From: Acidobacteriota bacterium | GTDB taxonomy: Bacteria > Acidobacteriota > UBA6911 | NCBI GenBank assembly: GCA_031271905.1 | Contig: JAISUT010000054.1 | Coordinates: 62,001-126,000, forward strand | Length of the DNA: 64,000 nt | Direction of reading: 5' to 3' | Part shown: piece after piece, positions 12,553-52,417 of the stretch | How positions within the stretch are numbered: position 1 is the first letter of the stretch | Layout of the letters: every line of letters starts with the position of its first letter | Translations under genes and position numbers: made by a program | The notes under the pieces: generated by a model | Databases searched by the model: none | What the model was told of the DNA's origin: nothing | The model's input: the letters and a program-made list of their open reading frames with translations, nothing else

Positions 12553-12755
12553 TGCAATATCTATGAATGATTGAACGATATACTTAAACAATTAGCATGA
12601 AATTTGGGCAATGATCGCGGAATCCTAGGAAGTTCGGCGAAAACGCTCGACGACGATAGCGGAGCGGAGCGGAACCTAAAAAATATATGGCAAGATAGAT
12701 CAATATCGATGAATTGTTGCGACACTAATTTAAACGACAACGCGAAGGTTGGAAA

Positions 12756-13982: not shown

Positions 13983-14002
13983 CCTCCCGCCATCCCGGCG
14001 TA

Positions 14003-14024
14003 GGGGCGCGGTTCGCCGCGCCCC
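14003..14024 (+). terminator. Hairpin after serA
   Basis: GGGGCGCGG (14003-14011) pairs perfectly with 14016-14024 around a TTCG tetraloop, 20 bp after the serA stop. The T-tail is short (TTG). Confidence 0.55.
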
Positions 14025-14259
14025 TTGCAAGACGCCGTCGCAATTCCGTCGCCGGTTGACGGAATCTTGTCACACCTCCCCCCTTTTTCGTAAGCCAGCC
14101 CCGCCCCAGACGGAACATCCCTGCGTCAAACAACGTTTTTCATAGTTGGCGCACGAATTGCTTATATCTTATGCGGGAGGACGGCTCCCCCACCGGATGG
14201 AGCTTGCGCCGGAGTCCCGAGGAACCATAGACGGTCCCACGGAAGGGGGATGCGAGCGG

Positions 14260-27745: not shown

Positions 27746-28825
27746 ATGAAAAACAGGGGACAGATCGACCGCAGGGGTTTTTTGAAGGCGTCCGTGCAGG
27801 GTGTCGCCGTCGCGGGCATCGTGGGGGCGGCGGAGATGGCGGGGGTGGTCGACATGGTGCCGTCGGCGCCGGCGCAAACCAGCAACCGGGACAACCCGGC
27901 GGAATGGATCGCCGGGGAGATCCGGCGGTTCACGGCGACCTCGCCACGCAACGCGCTCCACAAGGACGTCGCCGGCGAGTTGCCGGAACCCGAGAAGAAG
28001 TGGGCGGCGCAGAAGGCGTGGGACACCCCCTTGGTGGGCTTCGCCAGCGGCGCAGACCCGCTCTTCCCCCAGTACAAGGAATTGGTCGGCCCCTACCACT
28101 GGACGCCGGAGGAGATCTTCAAGCTGGCGCATCCCGGCGTGGACGCCAAACCTGAGGAGTTGGCGGTCGTCGTGTGGATCCTGCCGGCGCTGGAGGCGGT
28201 CAAAGGCTCCCTGCGCAAGGAGGACAAGAACCCCGCCGAACCTTGGGTGCGCGCGCGCATGTACGGGGAGCTGTTCAACGAGGATCTGCGCCGCCACGTC
28301 GCCGAAATCCTCGCCGGCGCGGGCTATCCGGCGGTCGCGCCGACGCTCTACAAGGACTTCCAGACGCAGAAGTCTGAGAAATACGTGTTCGCGTCCAACT
28401 GGTCCGAGCGCCACGCGGCCTATGCCGCCGGGTTGGGGACCTTCGGCCTCTGCGACGGGCTGATCACCGCCAAGGGAAAGGCGATGCGTTGCGGCGCGGT
28501 GGTGGCGAAGATGCCCGCCACGCCCGCCCCCCGCCCCGACTCCGACCCCCACGCCGACTGCCTGCACTACGCCAAGGGGACGTGCGGCGTCTGTATCTCG
28601 CGTTGCGCCGGCAAGGCGGTCAGCAAGGATGGCCACGACAAAAACGCCTGTTACAAGCAGCTCGGGGTCACCACCCAGTACGCCAAGGAGCATTACGGCA
28701 TCGACGGCTACGGGTGCGGCTTCTGCCAGACCCGCACCCCCTGCGAATCGGGCATCCCTACTCCGCGACCAGCCAGACGGTTGATCGTGAGCCGCACCCC
28801 CTGCGAATCGGGCATCCCGGTCTGA
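27746..28825 (+). CDS. Tat-exported reductive dehalogenase/QueG-like iron-sulfur protein
   Basis: 359 residues. A Tat signal (D-R-R-G-F-L-K, then SVQGVAVAGIVGAAEMAGV) targets the periplasm. The C-terminal half has YAAGLGTFGLCDGLIT, the corrinoid-domain element of the RdhA/QueG family. Two ferredoxin-like Cys clusters follow (CLHYAKGTCGVCISRC; C-Y-K-Q-L-G...CGFCQTRTPC) for two [4Fe-4S] centres. It is shorter than typical respiratory RdhA and no rdhB anchor gene follows, so dehalogenase activity is only a possibility. The C-terminus is duplicated: R-T-P-C-E-S-G-I-P occurs twice because of a 60-bp repeat. AAAGGAGG precedes the start. Confidence 0.75.
   Translation: MKNRGQIDRRGFLKASVQGVAVAGIVGAAEMAGVVDMVPSAPAQTSNRDNPAEWIAGEIRRFTATSPRNALHKDVAGELPEPEKKWAAQKAWDTPLVGFASGADPLFPQYKELVGPYHWTPEEIFKLAHPGVDAKPEELAVVVWILPALEAVKGSLRKEDKNPAEPWVRARMYGELFNEDLRRHVAEILAGAGYPAVAPTLYKDFQTQKSEKYVFASNWSERHAAYAAGLGTFGLCDGLITAKGKAMRCGAVVAKMPATPAPRPDSDPHADCLHYAKGTCGVCISRCAGKAVSKDGHDKNACYKQLGVTTQYAKEHYGIDGYGCGFCQTRTPCESGIPTPRPARRLIVSRTPCESGIPV
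28732..28818. repeat. 27-bp direct repeat within the 3' end of the RdhA-like gene
   Basis: 28732-28758 is repeated exactly at 28792-28818, a period of 60 bp. The 33 bp between them keep the reading frame and add 20 residues before the stop. The original C-terminus was probably at the first copy. Confidence 0.85.
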
Positions 28826-28830
28826 GCCCT

Positions 28831-28956
28831 TTTTTCGTCATCGAATGACGCGAATGCGCGCGAATCCCTCCATGCTTTCCATTCGCGTCGATTCGCGTCG
28901 TTCGATGGCCTTCCCCTGCTTCGAGCGCCGAACCGACCCCGATATTTCCGTCGCGC
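28831..28956. repeat. Palindromic intergenic repeat, copy 1 (left border of the type VII-like locus)
   Basis: About 126 bp that recur almost exactly at 39895-40020 in the same orientation. The first half forms a long hairpin: 28839-28865 pairs with 28881-28907 at 23 of 27 positions around a 15-base loop. It lies between the RdhA-like gene and the first gene of the secretion-like locus. The remaining ~170 bp up to 29127 contain an AT-rich segment that probably holds the promoter of the next gene. Confidence 0.85.
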
Positions 28957-29127
28957 CGGCGGGTTCAAAGGGGCTCCCTGCGCCCCGGACGCCCTTCGCC
29001 ATCGGCCTGCGTCGGACTCGCGCCTGGCGTGCGATAAAGATTTCTTAACCTTCCACAAATCGCCATTTCTTTCACGATATATTCCACTCTCCGAACGGGG
29101 GGTGAATATGGGAATGGAGGGTGCGCG

Positions 29128-30645
29128 ATGAAATGCGGGAATTGCGGTACGGAAATCAGCCAAGGTGAGTTCTGCCCCCGATGCGGCGCAGCCGTTTCGT
29201 CGGCACCCGCGCCTGAAACCGCGCCGCCGCCTGAGGTCGCGGTGGCCGCAGCTCCTTGGAAGCGACGGTCCCAGGCCGGTCAAGGCGCGCCGCAGGCCGT
29301 GGCGGCGGCAGAAGCGGCTGCGCCTGCCGCACCCGCGACCCCGCCGCCTCCGCTCGCGCCGCCGCCGCCGGTTGCCGCTCCGGTCGTCGCCGCGCCGCCG
29401 CCGCCACCGGTTCCCGAACCTGTCCCAGTGACGCAAGCCCCCGCCCTGCCGGTAGAGCCGATGACGCAACCGGAGGCGGCGCCGGAGCCCCGCAAGTCCG
29501 GAGGCAAGAAACTCGCCGTCATCCTAGGCGCGGCGATCTTACTGGTCGCGGCGGCGGGAGGCGCGGCATGGTACTTCTTCCTGCGCGGCGGCGGCGCGGG
29601 ATCGGGCGGCGGCTCTAAAGCCGCGTCGCGGGTTCTCGCAGGAAACGGTCTGGACGGCTTGGCGCAGGTCGGGCTGGTTTCGGAGGAATTGGACGAAGAA
29701 TGGGACGAGACGCCGGCCGAACCGGCCGAGGGCGCGCCCGCCGCCTCCGGCCAGTCCGTCGCTTCGAACCCGAGCCAGGCCGCAGGGTCGGCACAACAAC
29801 CGCAAGGCGGACAGGATCGCGGGCAACAGGCGAAGCCGCCGGCTCAATCCGGGCAACAGGCCGCCAAGCCCCAGGGGAAAAACCAGCCCGCGCCATCCAC
29901 CGCCGGGACGTCGCCTTCCGTCGCCGCGCCGACGGGGACTTACGCCCGCCTGTCGGTGAAGACCGCTCCGGGCGTGTCCGTCTTCCTGGACGGACGTTCG
30001 CTCGGCACCACGAACGGCGCAGGCGAGTTGCACTATGACGAGGTGCCGCCGGGGATGCACGAAGTGGCCGCGCGGCTCGCGGGCCACGCCGAAGTGAAGC
30101 AGAACCTGCAATTCGCGACCGGGGGGCAGCAGTTCATATCGCTGGAGTTGAAAAAACTGCTCGGCAACCTTTCGGTCACGGTCAACGTCGCAAACGCGGA
30201 CATCGCGGTCAAGGGCGCGGGACATTCCGGGACTTACCAGGACAAGGTGACGGCATTGGCGCTTCCGGAAGGCGACTACGACGTCGTCGTGTCGAAACCG
30301 GGCTACAACACGTCCTCCCAGCGGGTGCACGTCGGGGCAAACCAAGGCAAGGGGCTCACTGTGACGCTTGCTTCCAGCTACGCCGGGGCGCGCTCTGGGA
30401 CGCTGGTCTGGGAAGGGGAAGTCCGCGACACGGACCTGGTGACCATCGAGAACGGGAAGGCCAGCGCGGGGAAGCTCACGGGCGATCCGTTGCCTGGCGT
30501 GCCGTGCCAAGTCCAGTCGTCCGACACGGGCAAGGTGACCGTCGATGTCGCGCCCGGGCCGGAGAACCAATACCGAGGCATGACCTTGCGGGTGGCCGGG
30601 AAGAAGAAGGTCAAGGTGTCGCTGAAATGGACGGTCACCCCCTGA
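29128..30645 (+). CDS. Zinc-ribbon membrane protein with PEGA domain (type VII-like locus)
   Basis: 505 residues. An N-terminal zinc ribbon (CGNCGTEISQGEFCPRCG: two C-x-x-C) is followed by a long Pro/Ala-rich linker and a membrane helix (AVILGAAILLVAAAGGAAWYFFL). An acidic, Gln-rich low-complexity stretch comes next, then two or more beta domains including a PEGA domain (ARLSVKTAPGVSVFLDGRSLGTT...GMHEVAARLAGH). PEGA domains are small Ig-like modules on surface-exposed anchored proteins. As the first gene of the locus it may be a membrane scaffold for the secretion machine; this is inference from position. Confidence 0.7.
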   Translation: MKCGNCGTEISQGEFCPRCGAAVSSAPAPETAPPPEVAVAAAPWKRRSQAGQGAPQAVAAAEAAAPAAPATPPPPLAPPPPVAAPVVAAPPPPPVPEPVPVTQAPALPVEPMTQPEAAPEPRKSGGKKLAVILGAAILLVAAAGGAAWYFFLRGGGAGSGGGSKAASRVLAGNGLDGLAQVGLVSEELDEEWDETPAEPAEGAPAASGQSVASNPSQAAGSAQQPQGGQDRGQQAKPPAQSGQQAAKPQGKNQPAPSTAGTSPSVAAPTGTYARLSVKTAPGVSVFLDGRSLGTTNGAGELHYDEVPPGMHEVAARLAGHAEVKQNLQFATGGQQFISLELKKLLGNLSVTVNVANADIAVKGAGHSGTYQDKVTALALPEGDYDVVVSKPGYNTSSQRVHVGANQGKGLTVTLASSYAGARSGTLVWEGEVRDTDLVTIENGKASAGKLTGDPLPGVPCQVQSSDTGKVTVDVAPGPENQYRGMTLRVAGKKKVKVSLKWTVTP

Positions 30646-30712
30646 CAAGGGCGGCGCAAGTCGTGGTGCGCCAAGGGAGAGGAAGTAGGCAAAGCTAAGA
30701 GTAAAGGGAGCC

Positions 30713-30819
30713 TCTAAAAACCTCGCAGACAAGGCGTCGCAGAAGGTCGAAAAGCGGGGTTTACTACGGCGAATGAGCATTTTCGACTCAGGCGCAACGC
30801 AGCGTCCGGGGTTTTTAGA
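30713..30819. repeat. Nested inverted-repeat element between two locus genes
   Basis: TCTAAAAACC (30713-30722) is matched by its reverse complement at 30810-30819. Inside lies a second pair (GTCGAAAA and TTTTCGAC), so the ~107 bp fold into a long cruciform-like structure. The open frame of the next gene runs back into it (to 30773), but that part is not likely coding. Confidence 0.7.
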
Positions 30820-30850
30820 CGTTCCCCAAAGACTAAGGAGAAAGAGCCCA

Positions 30851-31846
30851 ATGGAATACAAGAAAAACCCGGACGGAGCACCTCGGGACGGAGCGCCTTC
30901 TTCGGACGGCACATCGGCGTTGTTCGTATCCGCGCGCAAGAAGCAGTTGGCGCAGCAGGAGGCGGAGCGCGCCGCGCGGGAGAAGGAAGAGCAGCGGCTG
31001 GCCGCCGAGGCGGAGGTGCGGCGTCTGGAGGCCGAGGTGGTGGAACGGAAGCGCAGGGCGGAGGAAGAGGCTCTGCGCGTCGAAGCTGACAACGCCGAGA
31101 AGCGGCGCCTCGCGGAAGCGGAGGCGAAGCGGATCGCCGCGGAGGCCAATGCGCTAAAGGCGCAGGCCGCGGCAAATCCGAACGCCGTCCTCGGCACGCC
31201 CCCGCCCCAGGCCCCGGCGTTTGCGGCACCCGTCCAGCCCGCCGCCGCGGCGCCGGCGAAGCCGCTGAACATGAAGCTGATCATCGGCGCGGCGGCGGGC
31301 GCGTTGGTGGTGCTCATCTTGGCCATCGTCTTGATTTCATCGATCGGCGGCGGCGGGGTCGATTCGGACGCGAAGTTCGACGCCTCGACACAGGTGACCG
31401 TCATGGCGATGGGGATCAACTACCCGAAAAGCCAGCTCAAAATATCGAGCCAAAACGCCAACGGCGTCGCCTTCGGCCCGATCGATCAGGGGGACGACGT
31501 CACCATCAACTGCGTGGTTCATTCCGTGGGAAACACCACCATCCAAGCGCTCAACGCCACGAACATGGAATTCGTCAAGGCGTTGTCAACCAATATAGTC
31601 GATGGGAAGATCGGCGCGGCCGATACGGTCGGCTCCCATGTGCGACGTCGGATGGCGGGCGTCGATTCGGACACCGGCAATGCCATGGTCCTCTATGTGC
31701 AGACCGGCGGTTGGAAGAACATCCATAACAACAAGGTATACACCTACAGCTTTCTGCTCGCGTGCCCGCAGAAGTCCGAGGACGCCTGGGTGAAGCTGTG
31801 GGATAGGATGCTCGACGAACTCTACGACCCGTCGGCGGCGGGGTAA
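30851..31846 (+). CDS. Coiled-coil single-pass membrane protein of the type VII-like locus
   Basis: 331 residues from 30851, chosen because AAGGAG lies about ten bases upstream and because the longer frame enters a palindromic element. Residues ~30-110 are a highly charged Ala/Glu/Arg coiled coil (EEQRLAAEAEVRRLEAEV), then a Pro/Ala linker and a membrane helix (LIIGAAAGALVVLILAIVLI). The extracytoplasmic domain of ~150 residues has many beta strands and no family I can name. The layout fits a structural membrane component, like the non-conserved membrane subunits of type VII systems, but no homology is evident to me. Confidence 0.6.
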   Translation: MEYKKNPDGAPRDGAPSSDGTSALFVSARKKQLAQQEAERAAREKEEQRLAAEAEVRRLEAEVVERKRRAEEEALRVEADNAEKRRLAEAEAKRIAAEANALKAQAAANPNAVLGTPPPQAPAFAAPVQPAAAAPAKPLNMKLIIGAAAGALVVLILAIVLISSIGGGGVDSDAKFDASTQVTVMAMGINYPKSQLKISSQNANGVAFGPIDQGDDVTINCVVHSVGNTTIQALNATNMEFVKALSTNIVDGKIGAADTVGSHVRRRMAGVDSDTGNAMVLYVQTGGWKNIHNNKVYTYSFLLACPQKSEDAWVKLWDRMLDELYDPSAAG

Positions 31847-31869
31847 ACCGATGTTTGACGCAGCGGTTC

Positions 31870-31913
31870 GTGGCCTGTGATCCGTGGTCTGCAAACCGCG
31901 GATCGCGGGCCAC
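31870..31913 (+). promoter_or_regulatory. Strong 19-bp hairpin in the leader of the EssC-like gene
   Basis: 31870-31888 pairs with 31895-31913 at all 19 positions if three G-U pairs are allowed, with a 6-base loop. The three wobbles keep pairing only in the plus-strand RNA, which suggests an RNA structure. It ends 33 bp before the start codon, so it may partly terminate, protect or attenuate the message. Confidence 0.55.
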
Positions 31914-31946
31914 GGCTATGCAAGTCCAATCGCGGAGGGGGAGAGA

Positions 31947-34900
31947 ATGAGTCTGCTACTGACGACGGTCTTCGAAAACGGTTTCCAGGAAATCTACCTG
32001 CCCGGCGTGGACAACAAGACCGTGCCCATCGACATCCGCCCGCACATCAGCGGCTGGGCCAAGGACATCACCCTCCCCTTGGACGTGTGGAACGGCGTCT
32101 GGACGCTGCACGGCAGCAAGCAGTTCGCCATCATGCGTGACGAGCGGCCGGTGGACGAGGCGGTGCTCGAACCCGGCCTCCTGCTCAACTGCCAGTTGGC
32201 CGACGGCGAGACGATGTTCTCCCTGACCGTGGAGGAGGTGGACGCGGGCCACACCCAGTTCGACAAGTTCTTCCTCGACTTCGGCGCCTGGCCGAGCGTG
32301 AACATCGGGAGCGCGGCAGGGAACGTCATCCGCTACGGCAACCAATACTGCTCGCCCCGGCACGCGGAGATCGTCAGCGAGAACGGCCAGGCCGTCGTGC
32401 GCGACCTGGGGAGCGTCAACGGCACCTTCGTGGGCGGCAGCATCCTTTCGGGGAGCCGCCCGCTGAAATACGGCGACGTCATCTACGTCATCGGCCTGAA
32501 GATCGTCTACCTCGGCAACGTCTTGGCCATCAACGACCCCAAGGGGCGGCGCTCGGTGGACGAGGCGAAGCTGAAGCCCATCCACATCGAGTCGGGCGGG
32601 GAAGAGGCGCAGGAGAGCGACTTCGAGGCGGAGGAGACTTATTTCCTGCGCACGCCGCGCACCTTGGAGAAGCTGGACGACGAGACGTTCTCCATCGAGA
32701 AGTGCCCGCCGCCGAACACGCAGAAGCGCCAGCCGATACTGTTCACCATCGGCCCCGCCTTCACGATGATGATCCCGATGGTGGCCGGCGCGATGATGAT
32801 GGGGGGCGGGGGCTCGATGGCCAGCGGCCTCGTGATGAGCGTCGGCGCGGCGCTGATCGGCGCCATATGGGGCATTTTGAACATCCAGTACCAGAAGAAG
32901 GAGGAGGCCGAGACCGAGGCCGCCCGCGTGGGCAACTACACCGCCTACCTCGCGAAGATCGCGACCCGCATCCGGGAGAAGATGGTGCACAACCGGGGCG
33001 TGCTCGCCCGCATGCTCCCCTCCACCGACGAGGTGGTCGCCTTCGCCGCCGACGGCAGCCCGCGGCTCTGGGAAAAGGGCGCCCTCCACGAGGACTTCCT
33101 CCATTTGCGGCTCGGCGCCGGCGCCATCCCCTCGCCGAACCGCATCGAGACGCCGAAAGAGCAGTTGATGACCCAGCACGACCCGCTCAACGACAAGATG
33201 GACGACCTGCGCGTCGGCACGTCGGAGCTGCACAACGTCCCGGTGGGGCTGTCGCTCTACCAGAACCGGATGGTGGGCGTCGTGAGCCACGACCGCGACA
33301 AGGCGCTGAACCTCTCCCGCATCCTCGGCGCGCAGATCGCCGGGCTGCACCCCTACACCGACGTGCGGCTCTGCTACGTCTATCCCATGCGCGAGTCCGC
33401 AAGCTGGGACTACGTCCGCTTCCTGCCCCACACCTGGACCCCTGACGGGAGCCTGCGCCTCGTCGCCAACGACGCGGGCACGGTGGGCGACGTGATGTAT
33501 TTCCTCTCCGGCGTCGTCCGCGACCGCCTGGAGAAGCAGCAGGACGCGGCGGACGAGAACGCCAAGGCCCTCCCCCACTACGTCGTGGTCGTGGCCGACT
33601 GGCAGCTCGTGGAGAACGAGCCGATCGCGAAATACCTGACGAACCCCGCCCCCGCGCTGGGGCTGACGGTGGTGTTCCTAGTGGACTCCACCGACAAGCT
33701 CCCCTCCGGCTGCACCGCCATCGTGCGCGACGACAAGGAAGGCTCCTTCTTCTACAGCACGACGGGCTCCTTCCCCCGGCGCGACGGCGTCACCTTCGAC
33801 AACGTGTCCTTGGAGCAGACCGACGATTTCGCGCGGAACCTCTCCACCTACCGCGTGCGCGAGTTGAACGTGTCCGCCGCCGTCCCCGACATGCTCACCT
33901 TCCTCGACATGTACAAGACCTCCCGCGTGGAAGACCTGGACGTCCTGCACAAGTGGCTGGAAAACCGCACCTACGAGAGCATGAAGTCGATGGTCGGCTA
34001 CAAGTCGGGCAGCCAGCCCCTCTACCTGGACATCCATGAGAAGTACCACGGGCCGCACGGGCTGGTGGCCGGCACCACCGGGTCGGGCAAGTCCGAGACC
34101 CTGCAAAGCTACATCCTGTCGCTGGCGGTCAGCTACCACCCCCACGAGGTCGCCTTCATCCTCATCGACTACAAGGGGGGCGGCATGGCGCAGAGCTTCC
34201 TCGGCCTGCCCCACCTGGCGGGGGTCATCACGAACCTGGGCGGCAACGCCACCAACCGCGCGCTCCTGTCCATCAACGCGGAGATCAAGCACCGCCAGCG
34301 CGTGTTCAACGAATACAAGGTCAAGCACATCGACGCCTACATCGAACTCTACCGCTCCGGCGTCGCCACGGAGCCGATGCCGCACCTGCTGATCATCGCG
34401 GACGAGTTCGCGGAGCTGAAGAAGGAGCAGCCCGAGTTCGTGCGGGCGCTGGTCTCGGCGGCGCGCGTGGGCCGTTCGCTGGGGGTGAACCTGATCCTCG
34501 CGACGCAGAAGCCGTCCGGCGTCGTGGACGACGAGATCTGGTCGAACACGCGCTTCCGGCTCTGCCTGCGCGTGGCCGACAAGCAGGATTCCAACGAGAT
34601 GCTCAAGCGGCCCGACGCGGCCTTCATCACCGGCACCGGGCGCGGCTACTTCCAGGTCGGCAACGACGAGATCTTCGAGGAGTTCCAGTCCGGCTGGTCG
34701 GGCGCGGAGTACACGCCGGAGGTGCCGTTCGCCGACGACAAGAACATCAAGGTGGAGCTGCTGAACCTGATCGGCAAAAACGGCGTGCCCAAGCAGAAGA
34801 TGAAAAAGAAGAGCGACAACATCGCCAAGCTCACCCAGCTCGACGTCGTGGTGAAGCACACCGCCCAGGTCGCCGCCGAGAACCAGATTTCCGAGCTGCG

Positions 34901-36557
34901 GCAGATCTGGCTGCCGCCGCTGCCCAAGACGCTGTACCTGGAAGACCTGGCGGAAACCCCCAAGCCGGAGGGCTTCTCGCTCCTCGTGCCCGTGGGCCTC
35001 GCCGACAACCCCGAGAACCAGAGCCAGTACCCGGTGGCGGTGGACTTCCTCCGCGACGGGCACCTGCTCGTGTGCGGCTCGGGCGGCTCGGGACGGACGA
35101 CGCTCCTGCAGACGCTCATCTACGGCGCGGCCGCCCGGTACTCCGCCGAGGAGGTCAACATCTACGTCGCCGACTTCTCCAGCCGCACGATGGCGGTCTT
35201 CTCCAGCCTGCCGCATGTGGGCGGCGTGCTGTTCGAGGGGGACGACGACAAGATAGCCGAGGTCTTCGAGTTGTTGCAGAAGACGCTGGCGCGGCGCAAG
35301 AGCGAGTTCGCCGAGCAGGGCGTCGGCTCCTTCCGCGAGTATGTCACGCAGAAGAGCGACTGCCCGGCCATCCTGTTCTTCATCGACAACTACGTCGCCT
35401 TCCTCGAAAGCTACGAGCAGTACGAGGACACGCTGGCGCAACTCTCCCGCGAGGCGTCCAGCTACGGCATCTACCTGGTGCTCGCCATGAACAACTCCGG
35501 CGAGCTGCGCAGCCGCCTCCGGCAGAACTTCACCTCCGGCATCGCCTTGCAGATGTCCGACCGCTTCGAGTACGAGGCGGTCGTCGGCGACCGCACGGAG
35601 ATCGTCCCCGAGGGCCGGACGCCGGGGCGCGGCCTGATCAAGTCGCCGCTGCCGGTGGAGTTCCACGTCGCCTTCTGCGTGAAGGAGGAGCCCGGCCAGT
35701 CGCAGGCGCAGACCCTGCGCCGCAAGTTCGCGGCCATGTCGCCGGCTTCGTCCGGCGGCGGGGTGAAGAAGATCGGCGACACCTTGGAGGGCGTCGGCTT
35801 CGAGGCGTTCGTGGCGCGGGCCGACGTGAAGGCCCTGCCGGAGGGCGAGCTGGCGCTCGGGCTGGCCGCGGAGGACGCGGGGCTGGTGACGATCCACCTG
35901 GACGACGAGTTCTGCTACACGGTGGGCGGCTCCGGCCAGTCCGGCAAGACCAACCTGCTGGCCTCCCTGGCCAAGCAGGCCAAGGCCAAGGGCGCGCGCC
36001 TGTTCCTGTTCGACAACGCGGGCGGTCCGCTTGAGGCGCTGGGCGTCTTCGAAAGGGTCGCCCACGACGACGCGGAGCTGTTCAGCCTGATGGAAGACGT
36101 GCTGGTCGCCGAGTTCACCGAGCGCAACGGCGTGGTGAACGACGCGCGGGACGCGGGCGGCAGCGTGGCCGAGGCGATGAAGGGGCACGGGCGCATCGTG
36201 TTCTTCGTCAACGACATGTCGGCCTTCATGCGCGCCGTCTACAGCCCGTCGATGGACATGGGCGGGTTCATGGAGGTCGCGCTGGAGAAGGGGCGCGAGC
36301 ACAAGATCCACTTCTTCGCGGCGGTCACGCCGGACGACTACGGCGACATGGCCCGCTACGCCGCCATGCGCACCTGGGCGAACTGGGGGCGCGGCGTGCA
36401 TCTGGGCGGGCTCTTCGACCAGCAGGGCATCCTGCGTTTCGAGATGTCGGCGGCCGACAGCGTGCGCCAGCTTCCGGCGGGCGTCGGCTACTCTGCCGGG
36501 AAGGGCGGCGCGGCGGTCAAGGTCGTGACGCCGAAAACGGCCGAAATCGGCGGGTAA
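31947..36557 (+). CDS. EssC-like type VII secretion ATPase (FHA, two TM, three FtsK/SpoIIIE domains)
   Basis: 1536 residues, the EssC size and layout. An N-terminal FHA region has S-P-R-H-A-E-I and DLGSVNGTFVGG (~155). Two membrane helices span ~265-313. Three FtsK-like ATPase domains follow. The first has an intact Walker A G-T-T-G-S-G-K-S (~709) and Walker B I-I-A-D-E-F (~817). The second is degenerate: its P-loop reads G-S-G-G-S-G-R-T-T, with Arg for Lys, and Walker B ends in F-I-D-N. The third keeps G-S-G-Q-S-G-K-T (~1330) but has V-N-D at Walker B. This is the motor that exports WXG100 proteins in monoderm type VIIb systems; WXG100-like genes follow. AGGGGGAG precedes the ATG. Confidence 0.92.
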   Translation: MSLLLTTVFENGFQEIYLPGVDNKTVPIDIRPHISGWAKDITLPLDVWNGVWTLHGSKQFAIMRDERPVDEAVLEPGLLLNCQLADGETMFSLTVEEVDAGHTQFDKFFLDFGAWPSVNIGSAAGNVIRYGNQYCSPRHAEIVSENGQAVVRDLGSVNGTFVGGSILSGSRPLKYGDVIYVIGLKIVYLGNVLAINDPKGRRSVDEAKLKPIHIESGGEEAQESDFEAEETYFLRTPRTLEKLDDETFSIEKCPPPNTQKRQPILFTIGPAFTMMIPMVAGAMMMGGGGSMASGLVMSVGAALIGAIWGILNIQYQKKEEAETEAARVGNYTAYLAKIATRIREKMVHNRGVLARMLPSTDEVVAFAADGSPRLWEKGALHEDFLHLRLGAGAIPSPNRIETPKEQLMTQHDPLNDKMDDLRVGTSELHNVPVGLSLYQNRMVGVVSHDRDKALNLSRILGAQIAGLHPYTDVRLCYVYPMRESASWDYVRFLPHTWTPDGSLRLVANDAGTVGDVMYFLSGVVRDRLEKQQDAADENAKALPHYVVVVADWQLVENEPIAKYLTNPAPALGLTVVFLVDSTDKLPSGCTAIVRDDKEGSFFYSTTGSFPRRDGVTFDNVSLEQTDDFARNLSTYRVRELNVSAAVPDMLTFLDMYKTSRVEDLDVLHKWLENRTYESMKSMVGYKSGSQPLYLDIHEKYHGPHGLVAGTTGSGKSETLQSYILSLAVSYHPHEVAFILIDYKGGGMAQSFLGLPHLAGVITNLGGNATNRALLSINAEIKHRQRVFNEYKVKHIDAYIELYRSGVATEPMPHLLIIADEFAELKKEQPEFVRALVSAARVGRSLGVNLILATQKPSGVVDDEIWSNTRFRLCLRVADKQDSNEMLKRPDAAFITGTGRGYFQVGNDEIFEEFQSGWSGAEYTPEVPFADDKNIKVELLNLIGKNGVPKQKMKKKSDNIAKLTQLDVVVKHTAQVAAENQISELRQIWLPPLPKTLYLEDLAETPKPEGFSLLVPVGLADNPENQSQYPVAVDFLRDGHLLVCGSGGSGRTTLLQTLIYGAAARYSAEEVNIYVADFSSRTMAVFSSLPHVGGVLFEGDDDKIAEVFELLQKTLARRKSEFAEQGVGSFREYVTQKSDCPAILFFIDNYVAFLESYEQYEDTLAQLSREASSYGIYLVLAMNNSGELRSRLRQNFTSGIALQMSDRFEYEAVVGDRTEIVPEGRTPGRGLIKSPLPVEFHVAFCVKEEPGQSQAQTLRRKFAAMSPASSGGGVKKIGDTLEGVGFEAFVARADVKALPEGELALGLAAEDAGLVTIHLDDEFCYTVGGSGQSGKTNLLASLAKQAKAKGARLFLFDNAGGPLEALGVFERVAHDDAELFSLMEDVLVAEFTERNGVVNDARDAGGSVAEAMKGHGRIVFFVNDMSAFMRAVYSPSMDMGGFMEVALEKGREHKIHFFAAVTPDDYGDMARYAAMRTWANWGRGVHLGGLFDQQGILRFEMSAADSVRQLPAGVGYSAGKGGAAVKVVTPKTAEIGG

Positions 36558-36568
36558 AGGGAGGAGAC

Positions 36569-36822
36569 ATGAGCAAGATCTACCTTGACGTGCAAGTTCC
36601 GGGGATCGCGAAGACCTATGAATTCGCCGCCGACAGCGTGCTGTCCGTCGGCAAGGTGAAAAGCCAGATCGTCTCGCAGACTCCGCCGTGGAGGGGCGCA
36701 CGGTCTTCGACGACCCCGGACAGGTGCTGTTCTGCTCGCGGGCGCTGGAAGGGCTGCTGCAAGACTCGGAGATACTGGGCGAGGTCGGCGTCAGGAGCGG
36801 GGACACCATCATATTGCTTTAG
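36569..36822 (+). pseudogene. YukD/EsaB-like ubiquitin-fold gene with a frameshift
   Basis: The start (MSKIYLDVQVPGIAKTYEF) has GGAGG upstream and lies 11 bp after the ATPase gene. Around 36670 the frame must move back by one base to continue as V-E-G-R-T-V-F-D-D-P-G-Q-V-L-F and to end in V-G-V-R-S-G-D-T-I-I-L-L at TAG 36820-36822. The joined product is ~84 residues, the size and ending of YukD/EsaB ubiquitin-like proteins encoded next to EssC. I see no slippery heptamer, so a one-base deletion or a sequence error is more likely than programmed frameshifting. Confidence 0.75.
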
Positions 36823-36878
36823 GTTTCCCGCAGGGAATCTTTCAACGGGAGGCTTCAAAGGGGAGGCGAGGAGGCGCG

Positions 36879-37187
36879 ATGCCGGATATCAGCAACGTGG
36901 ATTCGGAAAAGATCCTGTCGGCGGTCAGCCAGCTTGAGGGGGTCGTGGACAGGATAAACGGGTGCGTGGGCAAGTTCGCCGACGCCATCGGGACGCTGGA
37001 CAAGGGCTGGGCTTCGGAGGTGAAGGCGTCCTTCATGGACAACTACCAGGTCGACTGGGACGCCATGCAGGAGATGATCGCCCAGCTCCGCGAGATCAAC
37101 GAGGGGTTGAAGGAGACCGCGAGCGACTTCGACAAGGCCGAGAACGAAATCCTCGCGGACATCAACTCTTTGGGCGCCGTGGGCTAA
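36879..37187 (+). CDS. WXG100-family-like secreted helical protein 1
   Basis: 102 residues, two predicted amphipathic helices joined at T-L-D-K-G-W-A-S-E-V. The central turn has the Trp but Ser in place of the Gly of W-x-G, so it is a variant. No signal peptide, as expected for a type VII substrate. The end (LADINSLGAVG) lacks a clear Y-x-x-x-D/E tail, although F-D-K-A-E comes close. GGAGG is four bases before the ATG. It is the first of six small genes with short spacers behind the EssC-like gene. Confidence 0.7.
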   Translation: MPDISNVDSEKILSAVSQLEGVVDRINGCVGKFADAIGTLDKGWASEVKASFMDNYQVDWDAMQEMIAQLREINEGLKETASDFDKAENEILADINSLGAVG

Positions 37188-37217
37188 AGGGCGCCGCGCG
37201 CCGGAAGGAGGATGACG

Positions 37218-37541
37218 ATGGCGACGGGAAACGAGAGCAAGATCGACACGAAGTTGTTCGCGTCCACGGCCGAGCGGGTCGGCACGGTGGCCAAAGACCT
37301 GGAAAACTGTTTCCAGGACTGGTCGAGGATCATGCAGAGCCTGCGCTCCAACTGGCAGGGGGACACCTCGGACGACATCAAGAACACGGTGGAGGCCGTC
37401 CAAGGGAGCGCGGCGACGCTCGTCAGGACGCTGAGCGGCTACCGCGCGACCTTGAACGAGCTGGCCGGCATCTACGACCAGACCGAGAAGAACGTGCAGG
37501 AGACGGGGAAGTCCCTCAAGTTCGACAAGGCGTTCCGATAG
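37218..37541 (+). CDS. WXG100-family protein 2
   Basis: 107 residues, helix-turn-helix hairpin with a proper W-Q-G at the turn (LRSNWQGDTSDDIKNTV). No signal peptide. The start at 37218 is favoured because AAGGAGG is six bases upstream; the ATG at 37212 touches that site. Such proteins form head-to-tail four-helix dimers and are exported folded by the EssC motor. A Y-D-Q-T-E near the end of the second helix resembles the Y-x-x-x-D/E export signal. Confidence 0.8.
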   Translation: MATGNESKIDTKLFASTAERVGTVAKDLENCFQDWSRIMQSLRSNWQGDTSDDIKNTVEAVQGSAATLVRTLSGYRATLNELAGIYDQTEKNVQETGKSLKFDKAFR

Positions 37542-37553
37542 GAGGATGGGCCG

Positions 37554-37847
37554 ATGGCGATCAAATTCGACTACAACCAGACCGTCGCCCAGGCGAAGCT
37601 GCTGGACGAGCTGGCGAACGACATGCAGAACCAGTGTTGCAAGAAGATGGCGGAAATCGCCGAGAACATCGAGGCGGCTTGGGGCGGCCAAGCGGCCAAG
37701 ACCTATCACAAATATGTCGTGGGCGTGCGGGACGACCTTTTGAAAAAGGCGAAGTTCATGCGGGACACGGCGGAATTCCTGCGTAACGCGGCAAAGAAGA
37801 TGCAAAGCGCCGACGCCGCGGCCAAGCAGGCGGCGCAGGGCATTTAG
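37554..37847 (+). CDS. WXG100-family protein 3
   Basis: 97 residues with W-G-G at the turn (NIEAAWGGQAAKTYHKYV). An unusual Cys pair (N-Q-C-C-K-K) lies in the first helix. No signal peptide. GGAGG is eight bases upstream of the ATG, 12 bp after the previous gene. The second helix is lysine-rich, unlike the acidic proteins 1 and 2, so these may form oppositely charged heterodimers. Confidence 0.8.
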   Translation: MAIKFDYNQTVAQAKLLDELANDMQNQCCKKMAEIAENIEAAWGGQAAKTYHKYVVGVRDDLLKKAKFMRDTAEFLRNAAKKMQSADAAAKQAAQGI

Positions 37848-37891
37848 CGGGGCATTTTCAGCAGGGCGTCTAAAGGAAGGAGCGGGAGCGG

Positions 37892-38197
37892 ATGGCACAA
37901 AGCACGGTCAATTTGCAGAAGATGAAAAGCGTGTCTTCTGAACTGGACAAGATCTACACGACCTTGACCAACAACCAGAAGAAGCTGAACGAGCTGGTCA
38001 CGAGCCTGATGAAAGTCTGGAAGGGCGAGGGGGCGACCGCCTACAACGCCGCCTACCAGTCGAGCACGCAGGAGTTCACCCAACTGGCCGAGGCGGTTCG
38101 GAGCTGCTCCGCCTCGCTCGCCACGATCGCCACCACCTACGGCAAGGCGGACAGCGCGGCCGCCGAGGCGATCAAATCCAAGATGGCCAAAGGCTAA
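37892..38197 (+). CDS. WXG100-family protein 4
   Basis: 101 residues with W-K-G at the turn (LMKVWKGEGATAYNAAYQ), the most typical of the set. Helix 1 is rich in Lys, Asn and Leu, helix 2 in Ala and Ser. GGAAGGAG precedes the ATG. No signal peptide. It probably encodes an EsxA-like secreted protein or chaperone partner. Confidence 0.82.
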   Translation: MAQSTVNLQKMKSVSSELDKIYTTLTNNQKKLNELVTSLMKVWKGEGATAYNAAYQSSTQEFTQLAEAVRSCSASLATIATTYGKADSAAAEAIKSKMAKG

Positions 38198-38218
38198 ACG
38201 AGAGGGAGGGAACGAGAG

Positions 38219-38542
38219 ATGGCGAACGAAATCACCGCGAATCCGGCCGAACTGAGGAGATACGCCGACGAGATCGGCAAGTGCTACAACGTCTGCCGCA
38301 CGAGCCTGTACAACTCCAAGAGCCAGGTCGATTCGTTGAAGGGGGTCTGGACGGGCGCGGCCGCCGAAGCCTTCGCCGCCAGCTTCCAGAAGCTCTTGGA
38401 CAAGTGCGCCGAGAGCCTGGAGACGATGGGGCACATGGGGGACGCGCTGTACGAGTCCGCCGACGCCTACGAGCGCAACGAGAAGGCCGTTCAGAACGAG
38501 GCGTCCAAGATGCCCAAGCTGCCCAACAACACGATGCGATAG
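38219..38542 (+). CDS. WXG100-family protein 5
   Basis: 107 residues with W-T-G at the turn (LKGVWTGAAAEAFAASFQ). It has three Cys, two in the first helix (GKCYNVCRTSLYN) and one in the second. A Y-E-R-N-E just before the flexible tail fits the Y-x-x-x-D/E export signal. GGAGGGA lies upstream, 21 bp after the previous gene. Confidence 0.82.
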   Translation: MANEITANPAELRRYADEIGKCYNVCRTSLYNSKSQVDSLKGVWTGAAAEAFAASFQKLLDKCAESLETMGHMGDALYESADAYERNEKAVQNEASKMPKLPNNTMR

Positions 38543-38569
38543 CGGTTTCCGGGAAAGGGGGGTGTCCGC

Positions 38570-39181
38570 ATGGCGGGATACAAGGTGTCTTACAAGGTTC
38601 TGCGCCAGCAGGGCGAGGCGCTAAAGGCCGTCGCCAAGCTGGTGGACGGCTATGCCGAGCGGGTCGGCCAGGTCGGCGGGAAGCTGGGCGACGGCGAAAT
38701 GCTGGCCCAGGTGCGCACCAACCTGCAAAAGTTGCGCGAGCAGCTCGGGGAGTCGCGCGCGGTGCTCAACACCGCCGGGGAGTGCCTTTCCAAGAGCGTG
38801 GAGAGCTATTCCGGCGTCGAGACCCGCCAGGTCAAGAAGGTGGACGGCATGAAGGCGCACCAGCGCGACTTCTACAAGAATCCGGTCGTGGTCGCTTCCG
38901 CGGGAGGCGCGGCCGCCGGGGCCGCGACCGCGGCGGGCATGTCTGCGCCAGCCGCAGCCGCGCCGGCTTCGTCAGGCGCCGCGGCGGGGCTGGGCGCGCT
39001 CGGCGGTGCCGCGTCCGGAGCCGCCGCGCTCGGCGGGCTCAATGTGAAGAAGGTGTTCGACAAGAAGAAGGAAGCGGCGGCAGCCGCAGCCGCTTCTGCC
39101 GATGCCTACGACCCCGAAGCGGAATTGGAAAAAGCCATCCAGCGGCTGAACGCGCTGTCCGCAGACGGCGCGGAATCTTGA
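38570..39181 (+). CDS. Long helical protein ending the type VII-like operon
   Basis: 203 residues. The first ~105 are a two-helix hairpin like a WXG100/LXG protein without the W-x-G (turn near G-G-K-L-G-D-G-E-M-L). An Ala/Gly-rich hydrophobic stretch follows (~112-160; VVVASAGGAAAGAATAAGM), then a charged tail (DPEAELEKAIQRLNAL). It could be a pore-like or membrane-active effector, or a partner of the smaller proteins. No toxin domain is recognised. It lies 27 bp after protein 5. Confidence 0.6.
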   Translation: MAGYKVSYKVLRQQGEALKAVAKLVDGYAERVGQVGGKLGDGEMLAQVRTNLQKLREQLGESRAVLNTAGECLSKSVESYSGVETRQVKKVDGMKAHQRDFYKNPVVVASAGGAAAGAATAAGMSAPAAAAPASSGAAAGLGALGGAASGAAALGGLNVKKVFDKKKEAAAAAAASADAYDPEAELEKAIQRLNALSADGAES

Positions 39182-39320
39182 TGTGGCTGCTTCTGCGCGA
39201 AAAAGCCGGCCATGCGGAACCCCTTGTCGGAAGCCGGGAGGGGACGGGGCGCGCCGGAAAATGTAGATCGCTCGCCCTGTCCACAACGTTGTATGATGCT
39301 TGCCGAAAGGAAGTGATGCA

Positions 39321-39860
39321 ATGAAAAAGAATGCGCTCGTTTTAATCGTTTCTTTAATTTTTGGAATTGCCGCTTCAACCGCTTGTTCGCCTGACAAGTC
39401 AGGCGGCAATGGTTCTGACAACGGCGCATCAACTGAGATCTCGCTTGTCGGCGAATGGAAAGATGCGAATCTGACGGCTCAAGACGAATTAAACGACAAG
39501 GCTTTCAAGGATTTGACCGGCAAACCTTATTCCGATGAATTATTTGATGAATTGACAGATGAGCAACGCGAAAAATTCTTTGCGGCGGTTGGAACCGCTC
39601 CTGACGGTTGGCGAATAACTTTTAATGAGGACAATACTTTCGAGGGTGGTTATCTTTCCGATGGTTTCGACGGGAAATATTCTTATGATCTGCCGACAAA
39701 AACATATACATTGGTTTTAAACAGTCCATTCGGTAGTTGGGATTCCGAAACTGGATACGCAGACGATGCAGTTAAAACTGCGACAATAAAGAGCGTTGGC
39801 GAGACCAAAATCAAGTTGCATTTCGGCTCCGATGACGTTGAGCTTGTTAAAGCGAAATAA
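39321..39860 (+). CDS. Putative lipoprotein of unknown function
   Basis: 179 residues. A signal peptide (KKNALVLIVSLIFGIAAS) leads to a Cys in A-S-T-A-C-S, a loose lipobox, so lipidation is probable but not certain. The mature part is acidic and beta-rich (ISLVGEWKDANL, WRITFNEDNTFEGG, GKYSYDLPTKTYTLVL), like small lipocalin-type or DUF-type domains that begin with G-x-W. Its composition is clearly poorer in G+C than the locus before it, suggesting later arrival. AAAGGAAG precedes the ATG. It ends 34 bp before repeat copy 2. Confidence 0.65.
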   Translation: MKKNALVLIVSLIFGIAASTACSPDKSGGNGSDNGASTEISLVGEWKDANLTAQDELNDKAFKDLTGKPYSDELFDELTDEQREKFFAAVGTAPDGWRITFNEDNTFEGGYLSDGFDGKYSYDLPTKTYTLVLNSPFGSWDSETGYADDAVKTATIKSVGETKIKLHFGSDDVELVKAK

Positions 39861-39894
39861 AAAGGGCGAACGATTCCATCGATGCATCCCGTAT

Positions 39895-40020
39895 TTTTTC
39901 GTCATCGAATGACGCGAATGCGCGCGAATCCCCCCATGCTTTCCATTCGCGTCGATTCGCGTCGTTCGATGGCCTTCCCCTGCTTCGAGCGCCGAACCGC
40001 CCCGACATCTCCGTTGCGCC
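39895..40020. repeat. Palindromic intergenic repeat, copy 2 (right border of the type VII-like locus)
   Basis: Matches 28831-28956 with only a few substitutions and one deleted base, at a constant offset of 11064 bp, same orientation. It carries the same hairpin. It sits between the lipoprotein gene and the DHH gene on the other strand. Confidence 0.85.
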
Positions 40021-41579: not shown

Positions 41580-43070
41580 CTATTTGGAACTGGCTGCGGG
41601 GGTGGGGGAAGCCATCGCCGCACCCGGCGCCTCCACGTCCACGGGCATCAGCCCGACCAGCGTCGCGTCCGTCCACACCTTGTCGTTGGAGTATCCGCGC
41701 ATCTCGTATCTGCCCGGCTGCTGCGGCGCGTCGAAACTCATGGTGCCGGCGCGGTCGAACACGGTTATATAGGTGATGTACGAAGGCCGCACCCCTTTGG
41801 CGGCGTCGCCCGTCTCGCCATGGCGGAACAACCCGACCACAGCCGCGCCCACCATCGACCAAGGGACTCCGTCGAACTTGACGTAAAACCCCTCGCCGGG
41901 GGCGAACACCGTCTTGTCTGTGGAAAGGGCGAAGGCGTCGCGCATGTCCCCCTCCACATTGAAACCGGCGACACCCTTCAAGGTCTTGCGGGACAGGTCG
42001 CTGCCGTCGGCATACCACCTGACCTCGTAACCGCCTTTTTCAACCGGCGCGACAAAGCGCACCGTAGCGTTTTCCTTGCGGATGAACTCGTGGGCGGCGA
42101 ATTCATGGGAGAGGAACCGCCCGTCTCCGGCGCCTGCCGGGACGATGCCGACCACGGTTCCCTTCGCCAGCATGTCCGGCGTCACGCCGGGGAGGGTGAA
42201 GAGGATAGGCTCGGTCGGGCGGAACACCTTTTTTGACAAGGATATCGAATCAACGGTGGCATTTCCGCCGGAGTCGCCGCCTTTCCCCTGACCGTCGTTT
42301 CCATCGAGCCCCGCGCGTCCGTCGCGCGGCACCCCCCCTTCTGGCGCGGGTTCCGCCGTCACGGCGGGGACGGCGTGCGGCGAGCCGGCATCCCCGTCAG
42401 AAGTCCGCACGGCGGTTTCATGGGCGGCGTCCCGCGCCGGGACGCGAGAGCCTTCCGGGGGGAATAAGGCGCGGCGGGGGAGCCCCACGCCCGCGACCAA
42501 CCCCAGGAGCAATCCCAGAGCCGTCCCCAGGAAAGCGAGGCGGTGCGGGGACCTGCGCTTGCCTGCATGCGCGGCGGCGACCGTATTGCCCGCAACGGCG
42601 GGGACTTGCGTTTCGGCGCGCCGCGGCACGTCGTTGAACTCCAGCGCGGCGCAGACCTGTTGCGCGATCACTCCGGGAGTTCCGACGTCCGTGATCCCCT
42701 GCGTCGCGTTCAGCCCCATCGCCAGGCCGGGGGGCAGGATGTTCATGCCGTCGAGGTACACCGGCACGATCTTCTTGTTCCTGTTCAGCGCGTACTCGAC
42801 CTCCGAGCGGACGTAGGGCGACCCGACGGCGCTGTCGGAGACGAAAAACAGGAACACCTTGCAGTTCATGATCGCCAGCGCGATCTCGTCCGTCCAGGTG
42901 GAGCTTATGTTGATCCCCTTGTCGTACCAGATCGCGTATCCCCGCTCAGACACCAGCTCCAAGACCGGGAAGACGGCGTCCGCGTCTTCGTGCGCGTAAC
43001 TGATAAAGACGAAAGACTCCTCGTTGGGATTGCACGAGGCGACCCCGTTCCCCTGCATTGCTTCGGACAT
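41580..43070 (-). CDS. Membrane-anchored TIR-domain protein with extracytoplasmic beta domains
   Basis: 496 residues. The N-terminal TIR domain (~15-150) starts with FVFISYAHEDADAV (box 1). It has a WYDKGI loop and a helix SPYVRSEVEYALNRNKKIV whose Glu may be the NADase catalytic residue. A membrane helix follows (LAFLGTALGLLLGLVAGVGL, ~190), then a low-complexity Gly/Asp linker and two or three Ig-like beta domains. The topology would put TIR in the cytoplasm and the beta domains outside, unlike typical soluble defence TIRs. It may be a signalling receptor or an envelope-linked defence protein. It is adjacent to a DHH gene. Confidence 0.8.
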   Translation of the reverse strand: MSEAMQGNGVASCNPNEESFVFISYAHEDADAVFPVLELVSERGYAIWYDKGINISSTWTDEIALAIMNCKVFLFFVSDSAVGSPYVRSEVEYALNRNKKIVPVYLDGMNILPPGLAMGLNATQGITDVGTPGVIAQQVCAALEFNDVPRRAETQVPAVAGNTVAAAHAGKRRSPHRLAFLGTALGLLLGLVAGVGLPRRALFPPEGSRVPARDAAHETAVRTSDGDAGSPHAVPAVTAEPAPEGGVPRDGRAGLDGNDGQGKGGDSGGNATVDSISLSKKVFRPTEPILFTLPGVTPDMLAKGTVVGIVPAGAGDGRFLSHEFAAHEFIRKENATVRFVAPVEKGGYEVRWYADGSDLSRKTLKGVAGFNVEGDMRDAFALSTDKTVFAPGEGFYVKFDGVPWSMVGAAVVGLFRHGETGDAAKGVRPSYITYITVFDRAGTMSFDAPQQPGRYEMRGYSNDKVWTDATLVGLMPVDVEAPGAAMASPTPAASSK

Positions 43071-43412
43071 TCCCGTCAACACCCCGCCAATGTTTCTACG
43101 CCCCGCCGCCCGCGCCACCGTCGCGTCAAACAGCCCAGCCCCGTCATGCAGCCCACATGGCGACCGCCTGCCGCACACGGACATTAAATCGTCAAAGATA
43201 GTTGCCAAGATGAGATTTAACTGGAAAATCGCTTGCGGCGCGCCTCGTCGCATGGCTCACCGTCGCAAAGCCCCATTTCGACCGCCCTTGGACGATAAAC
43301 ATGGCGTCCGCCTACCGCAGGTTTTGGAATAGACATACCGCCAACAAAATTTATCATCTACATGCCGCATTTTATGGTATTTGAATACCATATTTTATGA
43401 TATGGTATCGGC
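43071..43412. other. Divergent intergenic region
   Basis: About 340 bp between divergent TIR and ATPase genes. Its right end holds the palindrome array at 43374-43408. The rest is high in G+C, with short frames I cannot support as genes. Confidence 0.4.
43374..43408. promoter_or_regulatory. Palindromic operator array (three ATGGTAT half-sites)
   Basis: ATGGTATT-TG-AATACCAT (43374-43391) is a perfect 8-bp inverted repeat. The second half also pairs with ATATGGTAT (43400-43408) as a 9-bp inverted repeat. The three alternating half-sites end four bases before the ATPase start codon, so a bound protein would block its transcription or translation. The stretch is AT-rich in a G+C-rich setting. 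Confidence 0.6.
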
Positions 43413-46953: not shown

Positions 46954-46957
46954 CCCA

Positions 46958-49087: not shown

Positions 49088-49190
49088 GGTTCAGCCTCCT
49101 AATATGTTTTATTACAGCGACTTGTAATTGCGATAGTCATCCACGTCCCCCCTAGCCTGCACACTTGCAACCGCCTTGCGGCCATCCGTC

Positions 49191-49976
49191 CTAGAACTCC
49201 AGATAGGAATCGGCGTAAAGGTAGTTGTTGCGGATGACGTCGCACGATTTTATGGTCTGCATCAGGCGCAGGTCGCACGGGTTGCAGATGGCGCTCGAAA
49301 GGCCGTTCATCATCGCCATCGCGACCATCGCCGAGTCGATGACGGGGCGGATGTCCTTGGGCATCCCGTTGGAGACGTTGGAGAGCCCCCCGGTGGTCTT
49401 GAGCCCCATCTCCGAGCATTGGCGGACGAACTCCAGCACCTCCAACTGCTTGTCCTGCATCCCCTTGATGACCAGGAAGAGCGGGTCGAACCAGACGTCC
49501 TCGGCCTCCATGCCGAGCGAGAGGGCGCGTTCCAGCATCTCCTGGCAGTGGGCCATGCGCTCGTCGTTGTCGGCGGAGATGCCCGACTTGGAGCAGAGGG
49601 CGAGGACGATGGCGTCGTTCGCGGCGGCCAGGTCGATGTTCGAGATGCGGTCGCCCGCGTCGGCGGAGTTGATGACGGGCTTGCCCTTGGCGCGGTTGTA
49701 GACCGAGATGCCCGCCTCGATGGCCTTGCGGTTCGAGGTGTCGAAGCAGAGCGGCGCGTTGTCGCAAGCCCCTTGGATGAGCGTCACCGCCCATTTCATG
49801 ATCTCCTCGCCGGAGCTCTCAGCCGGGCCGATGTTCACGTCGAGGTACGTCGCCCCCGCGTCGAGCTGCTCCTTGGCGCGCTTGAGGATCGGCTCCGGCT
49901 TGCGGTTTTCCATCGCGTCGCGGATGGACGGCGAAATGCAGTGGATGCGTTCGCCGATAGTGATGAATCTCGCCAT
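49191..49976 (-). CDS. acsE: Methyltetrahydrofolate:corrinoid/iron-sulfur protein methyltransferase
   Basis: 261 residues, the normal AcsE size and a single TIM barrel. Visible pterin-binding features are GATYLDVNIGPAE, CFDTSNRKAIEAG and KPVINSADAGDR with the conserved Asn, and a late T-T-G-G-L-S-N-V-S-N. It moves the methyl group from methyl-tetrahydrofolate to the cobalt of AcsC/AcsD in the Wood-Ljungdahl pathway. It lies 103 bp before acsB and 30 bp after acsC. Confidence 0.95.
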   Translation of the reverse strand: MARFITIGERIHCISPSIRDAMENRKPEPILKRAKEQLDAGATYLDVNIGPAESSGEEIMKWAVTLIQGACDNAPLCFDTSNRKAIEAGISVYNRAKGKPVINSADAGDRISNIDLAAANDAIVLALCSKSGISADNDERMAHCQEMLERALSLGMEAEDVWFDPLFLVIKGMQDKQLEVLEFVRQCSEMGLKTTGGLSNVSNGMPKDIRPVIDSAMVAMAMMNGLSSAICNPCDLRLMQTIKSCDVIRNNYLYADSYLEF

Positions 49977-50006
49977 AACCCCTCCTGTCGCAACTGGAAA
50001 ACCCGT

Positions 50007-51410: not shown

Positions 51411-51412
51411 CG

Positions 51413-52369: not shown

Positions 52370-52417
52370 GACCGCCTCACACCTCCCTGAACCCGACAAC
52401 CCTGGGCTTTGTCACGG

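Follow-up and report, generated by a model that had tools for sequence, protein, structure and literature searches.

Type VII secretion systems (T7SSs) are protein-export machines of Gram-positive bacteria and mycobacteria, and EssC families export pairs of WXG100-fold proteins using ATP. The ESX systems were left out of a 2016 survey of secretion as absent from diderm bacteria with lipopolysaccharide (LPS) (PMC4793230), and a survey of 2024 placed the T7SS subtypes in Gram-positive phyla only (PMC11217815). Unconfirmed pairs of WXG100 and FtsK/SpoIIIE genes in certain Gram-negative bacteria are mentioned in a passage of PMC10765036, which cites Sutcliffe 2011 and Unnikrishnan 2017, so that the bare idea of T7-like genes in Gram-negative bacteria is not new. 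The subject of the present analysis is a T7SS-like locus in a stretch of 64,000 nucleotides from an Acidobacteriota bacterium (assembly GCA_031271905.1, contig JAISUT010000054.1, positions 62,001 to 126,000); this whole stretch is called the window. The locus quite probably encodes a T7SS variant in which an EssC-type ATPase drives the export of WXG100 proteins at least into the periplasm. Because genes for EsaA, EssA, EssB, a kinase, and a phosphatase were not found in it, the locus fits none of the subtypes T7SSa to T7SSj as described in PMC11217815.

The EssC-type ATPase and its cassette

The ten proteins of the locus were scanned against Pfam and NCBIfam, and the locus was compared with L010, L011, and L013 from diderm metagenome-assembled genomes (MAGs), with L015 from an Oscillospiraceae MAG, and with L014, a contig of a monoderm Oscillospiraceae MAG. 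The features that carry the argument are these, in positions of the window:

30851 to 31846, plus strand: coiled-coil protein of 331 amino acids with one transmembrane helix and a predicted extracytoplasmic Mog1/PsbP-like domain; a longer start at 30773 is possible
31947 to 36554, plus strand: EssC-type ATPase of 1536 amino acids with an FHA domain, two transmembrane helices, and FtsK/SpoIIIE ATPase domains, identified by TIGR03928, Pfam, PDB, and trees
36569 to 36823, plus strand: YukD/EsaB-like gene for a probable ubiquitin-fold protein; in this assembly, the reading frame shifts after about codon 37
36879 to 37187, plus strand: Wx1, WXG100 protein (PF06013, 30.8 bits) with the tail motif FxxxE; orthologues in four loci
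37212 to 37541, plus strand: Wx2, WXG100 protein (39.8 bits) with WQG and YxxxE
37554 to 37847, plus strand: Wx3, WXG100 protein (33.4 bits) with WGG and without YxxxD/E
37892 to 38197, plus strand: Wx4, WXG100 protein (45.1 bits) with WKG and YxxxD
38219 to 38542, plus strand: Wx5, WXG100 protein (41.4 bits) with WTG and YxxxE
38570 to 39181, plus strand: H203, predicted EsxA-fold helical hairpin protein of 203 amino acids with a YxxxE common to all copies and an Ala/Pro-rich tail that varies; candidate for a substrate

The ATPase scored 1109.6 bits against TIGR03928 ("type VII secretion protein EssC"), well above the curated cutoff of 778.4 bits, and the match covered residues 232 to 1465. 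Pfam placed an FHA domain at residues 119 to 180 in addition to the FtsK_SpoIIIE domains, and hydropathy indicated two transmembrane helices around residues 264 to 313, as expected of an EssC. The best solved relative was YukB of Bacillus subtilis (PDB 9qks, E value of 2.1e-148). The scores for EccCa (411.7 bits, cutoff 509.15) and EccCb (301.2 bits, cutoff 346.55) remained below their cutoffs, and that for the FtsK model PRK10263 was 77.7 bits against 1566. The FtsK rows formed a separate outgroup with 100% support in the EssC tree, and a separate FtsK is encoded elsewhere in the host genome. By its sequence, the ATPase is a true EssC and not a DNA-translocating FtsK. An earlier note on this DNA, made from the letters alone, had proposed an EssC-like ATPase and had named clustering with FtsK as the outcome that would speak against it; score and domain architecture bear out the proposal, and neither the scores nor the tree gave such a clustering.

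The five WXG100-size proteins and the longer helical protein of that note are likewise present. All five Wx proteins exceed the Pfam WXG100 cutoff of 27.3 bits, and they are the only WXG100 proteins of the genome. H203 had no Pfam match; its predicted hairpin (residues 8 to 87, predicted local distance difference test [pLDDT] of about 80) resembles the crystal structures of EsxA and EsxB (target TM-score of about 0.8), at Foldseek E values of at least 0.06, so that the weight of this result rests on the consistency of the match list. H203 is a candidate for a sixth EsxA-fold protein and for a substrate. In all five loci, the second helix of Wx1, Wx2, Wx4, Wx5, and H203 ends with Y/FxxxD/E without exception; YxxxD/E has been described as a signal for T7 export (PMC10765036).

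The gene order EssC, YukD, Wx1 to Wx5, and H203 is identical in the window, L010, L011, L013, and L015, and when the six small genes were compared with one another by BLAST, each of the 119 best matches between loci (119 of 119) was the positional orthologue. This positional orthology, together with the conservation of Y/FxxxD/E, indicates that the five paralogues are fixed, specialized parts and not random duplicates. For H203 and Wx3, the copy of L015 is about as close as the diderm copies or closer (76 to 77% and 69 to 73%), and Wx1, Wx2, Wx4, and Wx5 of the window are closest to diderm copies, a mosaic that hints at recombination between versions of the cassette.

The coiled-coil protein has a long helix on the cytoplasmic side, one transmembrane helix, and an outer domain. 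Structural matches of the predicted outer domain were to LpqN, MTC28, DcrB, and Eag chaperones, with Mog1 as a weaker one; the model confidence is low (mean pLDDT of 55.5), and only the first match is below an E value of 0.001. These matches are taken here as one Mog1/PsbP-like fold. Comparison of the sequence profile of the outer domain with PDB gave no convincing match, and an impression that a lipoprotein of L014 is PsbP-like was not confirmed, since a profile comparison with this lipoprotein gave no match. The lipoprotein (L014, positions 4241 to 5410) is encoded between the coiled-coil gene and EssC, and its match to the model TIGR03931, for a type VII secretion-associated protein, did not reach the cutoff (E value of 0.0058). 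The N-terminal part of the coiled-coil protein is about 50% identical to the copies of the monoderm L014 and the diderm L013 alike; the C-terminal part is conserved in L010, L011, and L013, and the outer domain of L014 differs from those of the diderm copies. Since the N-terminal half and the transmembrane helix also occur in the monoderm L014, the protein should belong to the core of the system rather than having arisen for the outer membrane, which speaks against the earlier suggestion of an adaptation to a second membrane.

Host and origin of the locus

LpxK is encoded in the window (Pfam LpxK, 2.1e-73) and by 12 of the 14 relatives from the family, the contig also carries rpoB, some 33 kb away from the locus, and three Omp85 proteins of the host genome are above the cutoff, all of which identifies the host as an LPS-type diderm. 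With the EssC identity, LpxK, and Omp85, a type VII-like locus in an outer-membrane cell, as previously suggested, is upheld. The suggestion had been based on lpxK and pilM; lpxK was recovered by Pfam, and pilM is less sure, because positions 15395 to 16486 gave MreB_Mbl only. A cluster for carbon monoxide dehydrogenase/acetyl coenzyme A synthase (RACo, AcsB, and CdhD) at positions 44794 to 52399, after the locus, suggests a Wood-Ljungdahl metabolism in the host. An Rfam search of the window gave no match, and no 16S rRNA was found in the host assembly. Concerning the other carriers, Omp85 was found in G060, G061 (the genome of L011), and G063 (the genome of L013), and none was above the cutoff in G062, G064, and G065; the contig of L013 carries a TonB_C gene and that of L015 an SLH protein. 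G063 contains more than one RpoB-like gene, which hints at contamination.

EssC was absent from 14 of 14 genomes of the same genus or family, which contained FtsK only, and exceeded the cutoff in 1 of 396 genomes of the host phylum, namely, this one, and was found in 1 of 345 genomes of the phylum of G061. Some EssC was present in 35 of 299 genomes of the family of the L014 genome, mostly with 32 to 42% identity, and one of them has the 77% form. The EssC of the window, those of three "Deltaproteobacteria" MAGs, and those of three Oscillospiraceae MAGs formed a clade with 100/100 support, nested in Oscillospiraceae EssC proteins. Identity within this clade is 73 to 78%, compared to an identity of the host RpoB of 57% (genome of L011) or 62% (genome of L014). 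An EssC identity above that of RpoB is the opposite of what descent would give. Together with the supported clade and the single carrier among 396 genomes of the phylum, it suggests that transfer took place between Clostridia and diderms; apparently, the locus was acquired from Clostridia. In approximately unbiased (AU) tests, a single diderm clade was not rejected (P = 0.078), and a grouping of the window with Oscillospiraceae alone was rejected (P = 0.0055); the position of the window inside the clade was poorly supported, with 83% in one tree and no resolution in another. The codon usage of the EssC copies follows that of their own contigs, with a GC content at third codon positions (GC3) of 0.96 in the window and 0.58 in L013, which indicates that the transfer was not recent and also weighs against misbinning. 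No relative of EssC was found on viral contigs, and plasmids yielded only more distant EssC/EccC proteins, from Bacillota and Actinomycetota.

Flanking repeats, frameshift, and other explanations

The borders of the locus contain the following further features:

28831 to 28939, no strand assigned: left copy of a palindromic direct repeat, 98% identical to positions 39895 to 40003; hairpin
29128 to 30645, plus strand: PEGA protein with a zinc ribbon, 505 amino acids, one transmembrane helix (residues 129 to 147); membership in the system is uncertain
39300 to 39860, plus strand: lipocalin-like (DUF4923) lipoprotein, DUF4923 with 23.6 bits; low GC content
39895 to 40003, no strand assigned: right copy of the same repeat, 98% identical to the left copy

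The repeats had been described in the earlier note as about 126 bp long, in direct orientation, and 11064 bp apart. Orientation and spacing were correct; the length is 109 to 110 bp (98% identity, two mismatches), after which the similarity fades over the next 15 bp or so. The repeat can form a hairpin of some 27 bp (z = −4.8). The genome contains two more copies, with 74% identity, at other sites, and in one of these, changes on both sides preserve a stem pair. The repeats look like a dispersed palindromic element, and the near-identity of the two flanking copies suggests a recent duplication or conversion. That the locus can move or be excised as a cassette by way of these repeats would agree with the bracketing by two 98% identical direct copies and with the patchy occurrence of the locus within the family. 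This is nevertheless rather doubtful, because the repeat is one of a small family of dispersed palindromes, the contigs of L010 to L016 are without it, no integrase or transposase appeared among the genes scanned inside the bracket, and the codon usage of the locus has long been ameliorated to that of the host. Within the family, lpxK is conserved and its neighbors are not, the neighborhood of the locus is not syntenic, and the DHH gene to the right of the locus had no match in the 14 relatives. At the 3' end of the gene for a Tat-signal protein before the locus (28729 to 28818), a 30-bp stretch occurs twice in nearly identical form, at a distance of 60 bp.

Two large membrane proteins had been noticed between the repeats, and both PEGA and coiled-coil proteins are indeed present, with one transmembrane helix each. 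A conserved role of the PEGA protein was not corroborated: a tblastn search found no homologue in L010 to L016, and in L013 and L014, where the sequence before the coiled-coil gene is available, none precedes that gene. That the PEGA protein belongs to the system is thus a guess from its position next to the other genes. The lipocalin-like gene has a GC content of 0.44 and a GC3 of 0.41, compared to a GC3 of 0.79 to 0.96 in the neighboring genes of the locus, and is thus probably a later arrival and not part of the core; L010 and L013 hold other small secreted proteins at this position. Large LuxR-type regulators of about 845 amino acids adjoin the T7SS genes in L010 (9348 to 11891) and L013 (4116 to 6641), and none was seen in the window. 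TIR-domain proteins are encoded near the locus in the window (41580 to 43253) and in L011 (11303 to 12517). An autotransporter-like reading of L010, positions 12135 to 14348, was not confirmed by Pfam and was not used.

The YukD-like gene proposed before is real and begins at 36569, albeit with a single-base frameshift relative to four relatives, L010, L011, L013, and L015, whose 84-amino-acid orthologues are intact. These matched YukD of Pfam weakly (best value of 0.0025), with weak ubiquitin matches as well, so that the gene is identified by its size and place and by resemblance to ubiquitin. The frameshift would fit a decaying relic, which came from a Clostridium-like donor and no longer works, as would the lack of the locus in all relatives sampled. 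This is improbable: the other core genes are all open and 36 to 78% identical to their orthologues, the yukD codons beyond the frameshift are still open and intact in another frame, and the host-like GC3 of the genes indicates that coding capacity has been kept for a long time.

Misbinning or misassembly, by which a monoderm locus was wrongly placed into diderm bins, would be in line with an origin of the close relatives from MAGs throughout, with the short contigs of L012, L014, and L015, and with the 110-bp direct repeat on both sides of the locus. It is very unlikely with respect to the host-like GC3 of the locus in the window (EssC 0.96, LpxK 0.89, and AcsB 0.91, with 0.58 to 0.84 for EssC of the relatives), the presence of rpoB and lpxK on the same contig, and the tonB gene and the SLH protein on the contigs of L013 and L015, respectively. 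An FtsK-like function in DNA translocation or conjugation instead of protein secretion, which the FtsK/SpoIIIE domain of the ATPase might suggest, has next to no probability, given the EssC architecture, score, and clade, the adjoining WXG100 and YukD genes, and no relaxase or mating-pair match in the locus proteins scanned.

Proposed mechanism and comparison with known systems

Component identity, conservation, gene order, and the diderm hosts can be read from the genomes, and the mechanism proposed for the EssC-driven export adds pairing, secretion, and docking as inferred steps. EssC in the inner membrane, aided by the YukD-like protein, would recognize pairs formed from the five WXG100 proteins and H203 by means of their YxxxD/E-type tails and drive them out as folded helical bundles, powered by ATP. 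The coiled-coil membrane protein may replace EssB/EsaA, with its cytoplasmic coiled coil docking to EssC, to judge from the topology, and its Mog1/PsbP-like outer domain may receive the cargo. The first stop of the cargo would be the periplasm; since the locus encodes no outer-membrane channel, periplasmic export is the safe claim.

Several points weigh against this export system. Its nearest comparators are MAGs without exception, with short contigs in the case of L012, L014, and L015. The yukD frameshift in the window may be either an assembly error or early decay. EsaA, EssA, and EssB had no match in the ten locus proteins scanned (the rest of the genome was not searched), so that nothing recognizable in the locus spans the envelope, and no toxin or LXG effector was found near the locus. 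A more far-reaching proposal would be a distinct T7SS subtype, composed of EssC, YukD, five WXG100 proteins, the sixth EsxA-fold substrate, and the coiled-coil/Mog1-like protein, which crossed the monoderm-diderm divide and works across an LPS outer membrane, with secreted WXG100 proteins forming the path; at present, this is a speculative proposal with a small chance of being correct.

With a cassette common to Clostridia and several LPS diderms, it becomes testable whether the inner-membrane core of a T7SS is able to function in the absence of the envelope-spanning partners known so far and what happens to T7 cargo that meets a second membrane. Five fixed WXG100 paralogues provide a natural system to learn which pairs form and what the purpose of each one is, and a conserved block of eight genes, present in this genome and in two or more further gut-type genomes with an outer membrane, raises the question of how cargo passes the second membrane.

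The locus would share WXG100 export with the T7SSa/ESX systems of mycobacteria, which also work in a two-membrane envelope, there with a mycomembrane, but EccB, EccD, EccE, and MycP were not matched in the locus, and the EccCa and EccCb scores are below the cutoff. The core of EssC, WXG100, and ubiquitin-like proteins is common to T7SSc to T7SSj (Garrett et al. 2024, PMC11217815), which differ by their sets of vWA, kinase, phosphatase, EspG-like, Tad-linked, and beta-propeller components and in having been described from Gram-positive phyla only (PMC11217815). No domain of a Ser/Thr kinase, a PPM phosphatase, or the large envelope-spanning TsxI, as expected of T7SSe and T7SSj, was present in the ten locus proteins scanned. 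T7SSb of Bacillota resembles the locus in the FHA-bearing EssC, the YukD-like protein, and WXG100, and the locus exceeds the TIGR03928 cutoff; the locus differs in that EssA, EssB, and EsaA were not found in it, five WXG100 paralogues are present instead of one, the host is a diderm, and EssC is only about 28 to 36% identical to the T7SSb copies compared. The T7SSe-like loci of Clostridia (L097 to L099 and L106) seem, from a reading of open reading frames only, to carry kinase-like and large multidomain proteins beside EssC, none of which occurs in this locus, and their EssC proteins are 39 to 41% identical to that of the window. They are the nearest EssC sister group, with an FHA-bearing EssC and Oscillospiraceae hosts in common with the clade of this locus and, in L127, a zinc-ribbon-headed protein near EssC.

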